20,075 nucleotides of DNA, taken from IMG/VR virus record IMGVR_UViG_3300030108_000709, positions 992 through 21,066 of that record; one strand, written 5' to 3'. Below, piece by piece: positions 1,804 through 17,440 of the stretch. The stretch comes from a virus. The position numbers and the translations under genes are program-made. How positions within the stretch are numbered: the stretch's first letter is position 1; the number at the start of each line of letters is the position of its first letter. The notes under the pieces were generated by a model, which was given only the letters and a program-made list of their open reading frames with translations, did not search any database and was not told where the DNA came from.

Positions 1804-2105
1804 CTAACGAGTAGAATTAGCTCTGCTTGATCTAGTTTTACACGCTCCAGAACAATAAATCCTGCGTTGTTCCATTGTATTAAAACTTGTACCACAAACA
1901 GGACACTCTCTTACGAGTATCCCCTCTACTTTTTTTGGTTTTTTACCCCTAAATCTATAGTTCCTGTTTTTTCTTCTTTTTTATTTATTTCTTGCAATAA
2001 CAGTTGATATGCTTGCACGCCGCCTTCTAAACGTAGGATATACTGTCTTTGATTAATTATTTCTTGTTGCCATTCAAGGATCTGTTTTTCAATAGTTTCT
2101 TTCAT
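1804..2105 (-). CDS. Predicted -1 frameshift fusion: coiled coil plus zinc ribbon
   Basis: Reading starts at ATG 2105, follows the coiled-coil frame for 59 codons to AAG at 1929-1931, slips -1 on A AAA AAG (1935-1929), then continues GTA-GAG-GGG for 41 codons to TAG at 1804-1806, giving about 100 residues. The extension contains ECPVCGTSF and RRIYCSGACKTR. Its cysteines (extension residues 9, 12, 26 and 30) form CxxC-x13-CxxxC, typical of a zinc ribbon. The second frame is open further upstream but has no ATG, GTG or TTG before the cysteines; the only ATG, at 1875, would remove the first Cys pair. Frameshifting is therefore the simplest route to translation. Alternatives are a decayed gene or a sequencing indel in the A-run, although the full recoding cassette argues against those. 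Function unknown. Confidence 0.65.
1900..1950 (-). promoter_or_regulatory. dnaX-like -1 ribosomal frameshift signal
   Basis: Three elements appear in order on the minus strand. The SD-like AGGGG (1950-1946) lies 10 nt before the slippery heptamer. The heptamer A AAA AAG (1935-1929) is in the correct zero-frame phase (CAA AAA AAG, then TAG stop). After a 5-nt spacer comes a 9-bp stem: GGGATACTC (1923-1915) with GAGTGTCCT (1908-1900), loop GTAAGA, with two G-T wobbles. E. coli dnaX uses the same heptamer with an upstream SD-like site about 10 nt away and a downstream stem after a similar spacer. Confidence 0.75.
1926..2105 (-). CDS. Short coiled-coil protein (unshifted product)
   Basis: A 59-residue charged protein, MKETIEKQILEWQQEIINQR onward, with heptad-like spacing of I, L, W and Y over residues 3-40 that suggests one amphipathic helix or coiled coil, then a Lys-rich tail ending KNQKK. 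The ATG at 2105 shares its A with the TGA of the preceding gene (TGATG), which favours it over the TTG one codon upstream (2108). The stop at 1926-1928 follows directly on the slippery A-run, so this is probably the normal termination product of the frameshift gene. No function recognised. Confidence 0.7.
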   Translation of the reverse strand: MKETIEKQILEWQQEIINQRQYILRLEGGVQAYQLLLQEINKKEEKTGTIDLGVKNQKK

Positions 2106-16902: not shown

Positions 16903-17440
16903 TTACCGCCTTCTGGGTTTCATGGCTTGTTTTTTTTGCACTTGTTCTTTATATTTTTCTTCTTCTTCGTGTTTTAACTCAAAAAAACCTGCCCAAGCTA
17001 TTAATTCTTCTCTAGTTAAATTTTCTGTAAGTTGTTTTATTGTCATTCCTAACTCTTTAGCTAAAAAAAACAATAAATACCAATCTTTATTAGCTTTTTA
17101 AAGCTGCTTTCGCTTCCTCCACTTTTAAATTTTCTCCAGATGTCATCATTGCCATTTGTATATCTTGTAAAACACCTGCATTTATTTCTCTTCTAAGAGA
17201 AGCCTTATGACCATCTTGAAATAATCTTTTGCCATTTTCATCTAATGCTTTTTCAATCATAAGATTTAAAGCAAATTCATTTCCATCATCACCTTTAGAT
17301 TTAGCCATAATCGATTCTCTTTCTGCAATAGTTAATGGATGCCAATATATTTCTAATACTGTTTCTTTTCCATCCTTTACTTCATATTTATATTTTTGGC
17401 TAACACCAAACTTGTTTCTGAGGAGTTCAATCGCTTCCAT
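16903..17440 (-). CDS. Tail assembly chaperone, frameshifted long form (GT type)
   Basis: The long form reads 115 codons from ATG 17440, then changes frame at AAA-A (17098-17095) and continues GCT AAT AAA GAT TGG for 63 codons to TAA at 16903-16905, giving 178 residues. The extension (KDWYLLFFLAKELGMTIKQL, then TREELIAWAGFFELKHEEEE) is the typical DWYLL...ELaeW...E pattern of tail chaperone C-terminal domains, and has no start codon before its first half. The extension frame is +1 relative to the first; its nearest upstream stop (TAA, 17100-17098) restricts the shift to a few codons. A +1 slip of tRNA-Lys from AAA to the overlapping AAA keeps perfect pairing, whereas -2 does not. Siphoviruses use such shifts to make a minor long form that binds the tape measure. 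Confidence 0.75.
17090..17102 (-). promoter_or_regulatory. Slippery site of the tail chaperone gene
   Basis: The minus strand reads TTTAAAAAGCTAA across the end of the short chaperone frame, whose codons are TTA AAA AGC TAA. T TTA AAA also looks like a canonical -1 heptamer, but the -1 frame closes after 11 codons (ending TGT TTT TTT TAG), while the +1 frame encodes the conserved chaperone extension. AAA-A followed by AGC fits a +1 P-site slip. Confidence 0.65.
17090..17440 (-). CDS. Tail assembly chaperone, short form (G type)
   Basis: A 116-residue, mostly helical protein: MEAIELLRNKFGVSQKYKYE, then LEIYWHPLTIAERESIMAKS and EINAGVLQDIQMAMMTSGEN, ending EEAKAALKS. The pattern of a beta-hairpin start with an LTIAER-type segment and a position just before the tape measure gene identifies it as the lambda gpG-like chaperone that coats the tape measure during tail assembly. 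It would be the major product, with the frameshifted form as the minor one. The start is ATG 17440, after an AT-rich palindromic gap. No strong Shine-Dalgarno is seen. Confidence 0.85.
   Translation of the reverse strand: MEAIELLRNKFGVSQKYKYEVKDGKETVLEIYWHPLTIAERESIMAKSKGDDGNEFALNLMIEKALDENGKRLFQDGHKASLRREINAGVLQDIQMAMMTSGENLKVEEAKAALKS

Follow-up and report, generated by a model that had tools for sequence, protein, structure and literature searches.

How is a zinc-finger reading frame translated when it begins within the end of another gene and has no start codon of its own? This question is raised by a locus on the minus strand of a phage genome. The DNA analyzed, here called the window, is a stretch of 20,075 nucleotides, the greater part of a virus record of 21,066 bases. 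A preliminary description of it had proposed a −1 frameshift cassette of the type known from E. coli dnaX, fusing a coiled coil to a zinc-binding module.

The cassette and the phage that carries it

The final zero-frame codons of the short upstream gene are CAA AAA AAG TAG, which puts the A AAA AAG heptamer in slippery phase. The zero-frame product is MKETIEKQILEWQQEIINQRQYILRLEGGVQAYQLLLQEINKKEEKTGTIDLGVKNQKK, for which AF2 predicts a single helix at residues 2–48 (pLDDT about 95) and a disordered end after it. Translation of the −1 frame gives VEGILVRECPVCGTSFNTMEQRRIYCSGACKTRSSRANSTR, with the cysteine pattern CxxC-x13-CxxxC, and the predicted helix-finger fusion has 100 residues compared to 59 for the zero-frame product. 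The hairpin downstream of the heptamer has a folding energy of −14.1 kcal/mol, and its z-score is −2.4 relative to synonymous-codon recoding and −3.5 relative to dinucleotide shuffles. The features of a dnaX-type signal, namely an in-phase A AAA AAG near the end of the ORF, a Shine-Dalgarno (SD)-like element about 10 nucleotides upstream and a stem-loop a few nucleotides downstream, are thus all present in the window. When the minus strand was rechecked, each sequence statement of the preliminary description proved correct to the base, including AGGGG, the 10-nucleotide distance, the in-phase heptamer, the 5-nucleotide spacer, the 9-bp hairpin and the absence of ATG, GTG or TTG upstream of the first cysteine in the open −1 frame.

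Table 1. Features of the cassette and of neighboring or related genes in the window
Feature	Position	Strand	Basis
Zero-frame ORF (ATG at 2105, 59 codons, TAG at 1928–1926), 59-aa helical (coiled-coil) protein	1926–2105	−	ORF reading, homologues, AF2 single helix
SD-like AGGGG, 10 nt upstream of heptamer	1946–1950	−	sequence; enriched in family
Slippery heptamer A AAA AAG, in zero-frame phase, UAG directly after	1929–1935	−	75/75 homologous junctions
9-bp hairpin (arms 1923–1915 and 1908–1900), 5 nt downstream of heptamer	1900–1923	−	folding, z-scores
−1 frame, heptamer to TAG (1806–1804), CxxC-x13-CxxxC zinc finger and basic tail	1804–1935	−	purifying selection, AF2
phrog_568 gene (“plasmid stability”)	1463–1768	−	
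One-helix membrane ORF, 44 aa	1680–1814	+	
G chaperone gene	17090–17440	−	phrog_344
T chaperone gene	16903–17073	−	

Programmed −1 ribosomal frameshifting is very probably how the gene is decoded. The majority of ribosomes would stop at UAG and release the 59-residue helical protein, while a fraction would slip back one base on A AAA AAG, where two tRNA-Lys would re-pair from AAA-AAG to AAA-AAA. In the virus of the window, the upstream AGGGG and the downstream hairpin would aid this slippage, and the slipped ribosomes would make the 100-residue protein ending in the zinc finger. The helix probably self-associates, which would give mixed oligomers in which only some subunits bear a basic zinc-binding head. 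We infer the synthesis of two products and the slippage on the ribosome from comparison of sequences, and likewise infer zinc binding by the finger and oligomerization of the helix.

The nearest cultured relatives of this phage are the Prochlorococcus siphoviruses MED4-117 and P-HS2. The tail-tip protein of the window is 42% identical to theirs, the membrane protein downstream of the cassette is 72% identical to its counterpart, and both phages have a 59-residue helix of the phrog_20003 family at the same place. The likely start of the phrog_568 gene is, as in P-HS2, the ATG of MFQKIANVLSII rather than an upstream GTG. On the opposite strand, the interval between the finger and the next gene is occupied by a conserved antisense ORF for a 44-residue one-helix membrane protein (MIKFALLKAMSVMSIATLLLIIGLSPLYVTLG...). 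This ORF overlaps the end of the finger frame, and CATG is common to its start and that of the divergent gene MFQKIANVLSII. It has homologues at about 40 loci, and also in P-HS2.

Conservation of the heptamer and the frame relation

It is the comparison with related viruses that makes the programmed −1 frameshift well supported rather than a mere suspicion. The helix, its alignment and the zinc finger, as well as a second helix family, served as queries in scans of viral contigs for homologues, which revealed 74 distinct junctions between a helix ORF and a zinc finger. A 75th (L352) was found when the DNA of viral contigs was scanned for the pattern of heptamer, stop and CxxC...YCxxxC. The junctions come from uncultured marine phage contigs of many assemblies, and the 74 fall into 65, 50, 39 and 27 clusters at 95, 90, 85 and 80% identity. 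Pattern matches outside this phage group lie in other frames or have no upstream ORF, and are regarded as chance (L292, L296, L299, L316, L323, L325, L341, L353, L356 and L362). In addition, a scan of genome contigs gave four weak zinc-finger matches and no cassette, an Rfam search of the region gave nothing above chance, and tblastn in cultured phage records found no relative of the window's helix type. Matches of tblastn to HNH proteins and mycobacteriophage hypothetical proteins were weak and confined to the zinc finger, and were set aside.

Every one of the 75 distinct junctions has A AAA AAG in the phase of the helix ORF upstream and a finger in the −1 frame relative to that ORF. The preliminary description had named conservation of the A-run along with the −1 zinc frame as a check. 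This conservation is complete here, and given its recurrence in 75 distinct junctions, the arrangement is far beyond what chance would be expected to produce. In contrast, an in-phase heptamer within the last 90 nucleotides was found in 0 of 28 distinct helix relatives that lack the finger.

Sequencing often misreads an A-run by one base, and the preliminary description had pointed out that homologues joined in one frame, with an A-run of another length, would indicate such an error. Among the 75 junctions, no in-frame fusion of helix and finger and no such variant was found; since these sequences derive from many assemblies, a sequencing error is excluded. The wider explanation of an assembly error or a decaying pseudogene, whose two parts were formerly in one frame, is barely credible given that the same frame relation recurs in 75 distinct sequences, that the finger is under purifying selection, and that the stop codon both differs (TAG or TAA) and moves.

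The surroundings of the heptamer vary while the heptamer itself is kept. The codon preceding it is GAA, GTA, ATA, AAA, CAA or GCA, with a third base that is invariably A. Its second lysine codon is invariably AAG, compared to 380 AAA and 56 AAG (13% AAG) among the other lysine codons of these ORFs, and the −1 codon that follows can be GTA, GCA, GAA or GTC. Because AAG is otherwise rare among the lysine codons and the next −1 codon varies, neither protein forces the closing G of the heptamer. The zero-frame stop, whose identity (TAG or TAA) differs among junctions, directly adjoins the heptamer in 59 of 74 junctions and lies 3–27 nucleotides farther downstream in the rest; the distances are 0, 3, 9, 12, 18 or 27 nucleotides, and the heptamer does not shift along with the stop. 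For L006 the script counted the first of two heptamers, the second of which directly adjoins the stop. Two in-phase A AAA AAG heptamers stand in tandem ahead of the finger in L182, L193 and L279. Thus the heptamer is retained despite a moved stop, a changed preceding amino acid, or a swap to an unrelated helix.

The same fusion could also be made by transcriptional slippage, in which RNA polymerase adds one A within the A-run and a minority of transcripts is then translated in the ordinary way. A run of 6–9 A would yield the same protein, slippage of this kind is known in bacteria, for example in Thermus dnaX (PMC5009743), and the run reaches 8–9 in seven distinct junctions. However, it is only A6 in 30 of 74 junctions, and the closing G, the phase and properly spaced SD-like elements are kept although they are irrelevant to RNA polymerase, which makes this explanation very unlikely compared to slippage on the ribosome.

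Stimulatory elements and the zinc-finger frame

The preliminary description had recognized three dnaX elements. All three are present in the window, but only the heptamer is universal, while the SD-like element (48 of 69 distinct junctions) and the hairpin (38 of 69) are lineage-specific; the hairpin is thus not conserved jointly with the A-run and the −1 frame. The SD-like element is over-represented, with 60% of 40 distinct upstream windows at or below −5 kcal/mol, compared to 10% of background windows from other parts of these ORFs. Members of the main lineage share the window's hairpin, which is broken in about 10 sequences with the same finger spacing and is missing from several lineages and from the majority of the second helix family. 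Its covariation is slight, as in the change from U-G to U-A in L005 and L149.

At least one extra promoting feature (SD-like element, hairpin, A-run of at least 8, or second heptamer) is found in 69 of 69 distinct junctions, and those having neither an SD-like element nor a hairpin have an A-run of at least 8 or a second heptamer. The thresholds for these features were chosen after looking at the data, so this regularity is only suggestive. No anticorrelation between SD-like element and hairpin was found across junctions (Fisher p = 1).

The −1 frame has pairwise differences of 13, 10 and 33% at codon positions 1, 2 and 3, and on this codon-position divergence it is under purifying selection. 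This frame contains no ATG, GTG or TTG ahead of the first cysteine in 70 of 74 junctions. The finger could in principle be a separate protein, translated from an internal start or by reinitiation past the helix stop, as GAAGG or GAGGGG occurs downstream of the stop in many junctions and some relatives do have a finger gene with its own start. It is nevertheless a highly improbable explanation of the junctions, given the scarcity of start codons and given that an independent start would need no in-phase heptamer, which all 75 possess.

The relatives with their own start are of several kinds. In L171 and L266 the finger is a 48-residue ORF with an ATG, located 34 nucleotides after a different helix gene. 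L322, L332, L346 and L347 encode it as a small protein of about 55–65 residues (MIEEFxTxxGFxYKKV...); in L346 and L347 its gene adjoins one whose product is similar to the phrog_570-type proteins of the window. L334 has a similar finger ORF at the usual place with an uncertain start codon, and is probably a separate gene as well. These last five loci were found by a pattern requiring AAAAAAGTAR, which biases their shared KKV. The separate genes show that the finger can be made on its own. The preliminary description had counted a finger frame with its own start as evidence against a frameshift; such frames do exist, but as separate genes with another N-terminus and no fused helix, so they do not refute a shift elsewhere.

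The AF2 model of the finger has two short strands and two helices, with moderate confidence (pLDDT 75). Weak profile matches connect it to the treble-clef fingers of HNH endonucleases, NinG, YacG and DUF2116, with the best window scores at 13–15 bits compared to Pfam gathering cut-offs of 25–27. In fold comparison from this pLDDT-75 model, YacG (4tma) gave a Z of 2.5 and the best match a Z of 3.5, and searches of the PDB by sequence and fold found no clear relative. Synthetic and C2H2 fingers in the PDB search have low E-values that rest on 10-residue stretches, and were given little meaning. On this weak model, the domain may be better called a treble-clef-like finger than, as in the preliminary description, a “zinc ribbon”.

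Possible cassette exchange, possible function and comparison with known systems

The finger is found on dissimilar helices. Helix types A and B begin with MKxxIEKQILEW..., while types C and D belong to phrog_20003 (MPRKTTEELQQEL...), yet both groups have the same finger. Around and after the first cysteine, L149 (type C) is 91–92% identical to the type-A loci L016 and L075, compared to only 30–41% over the 90 nucleotides before the heptamer. Another unusual feature, the finger's C-terminal tail RLCRSNKRLEKNKKSTSIQL, is common to L053 (type A) and L283 (type D) although their helices are unrelated, which appears to be a sign of mosaic exchange. Exchange near the junction would be the simplest reading of both patterns.

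More broadly, the heptamer and zinc finger may form an exchangeable end-cassette that unrelated helix genes at the same locus gain or lose as a unit. The slippery site would be kept as the joint, and the stimulators (SD, hairpin, longer A-run, second heptamer) could replace one another. What selection maintains in these marine phages would then be the proportion of subunits with and without the cap, and not the finger as such. We give this proposal somewhat less than an even chance.

The function of the protein is more doubtful. A small late accessory protein, related to assembly or to nucleic-acid or protein tethering, is a tentative suggestion prompted solely by its position among or after the tail genes, and the functional reading as a whole, which draws on this position and weak motif similarity, is equally speculative.

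To our knowledge, conserved phage frameshift sites have seldom been described beyond tail chaperones, a few coat or tail-tube proteins, and transposases. No description of frameshifting in the helix-finger gene was found in the literature searched, which covered few subscription journals. The preliminary view that such signals are rarely reported outside dnaX, transposases and tail chaperones is supported by the SEA-PHAGES data used by PRFect, in which 2397 of 2476 annotated frameshifted genes are tail chaperones (PMC10885494). The present case combines a tiny gene, one strictly kept slippery sequence and free stimulators, and its single finger occurs on no fewer than two unrelated helix families. 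As a natural series, the family could be used to ask which frameshift stimulators can substitute for one another. The case would also correct annotation, as automatic callers truncate the gene at the stop codon.

Like the lambda G/GT chaperones, the helix-finger gene encodes a small phage protein that would be extended by frameshifting in the tail region of a siphovirus, but the two are not homologous. An identity as tail chaperone was rejected, as the gene has no phrog_344 match and the phage has its own G/T pair elsewhere in the window, just before the tape measure gene. Around GCT TTA AAA AGC TAA, the T frame of that pair (NKDWYLLFFLAKELGMT...) is offset by +1 or −2 from the G frame, and a second, different frameshift is probably used there in the same genome.

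The phrog_20003 helices of P-HS2 and MED4-117 are encoded at this locus too, ahead of the phrog_568 membrane gene, and are homologous to the second helix type, which bears the finger in other contigs, but they have neither heptamer nor zinc finger. The finger extension therefore appears dispensable for phages of this type. The finger itself resembles those of HNH, NinG, YacG and DUF2116 proteins in its CxxC...YCSxxC pattern and basic tail, and differs in that Pfam scores are below gathering and that it is short, fused to a helix and without a nuclease domain.

Known phage C-terminal extensions made by frameshifting include T3/T7 gene 10, Lactobacillus A2 and the Ig-like extensions of Listeria PSA/A118 (PMC5009743). 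As proposed for the present family, a minority of the protein gains a C-terminal domain because ribosomes shift frame shortly before the ORF ends, and the domain has more than one kind of carrier and can also occur where there is no shift (PMC5009743). Here, by contrast, the carrier is a small helical protein rather than a coat or tail-tube protein, the domain is a zinc finger, and one heptamer is conserved throughout.

E. coli dnaX shares with the window the A AAA AAG heptamer, the upstream SD-like element and the downstream stem-loop, but it is an unrelated gene, and in the phage family the SD-like element and stem-loop are optional. Moreover, the shift in dnaX gives the shorter product, while the phage shift would give the longer one. 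In a minority dnaX arrangement of some bacteria these product roles are reversed (PMC5009743); there, as in the phage cassette, the shift yields the longer product and the zero-frame stop lies directly after the site (PMC5009743).
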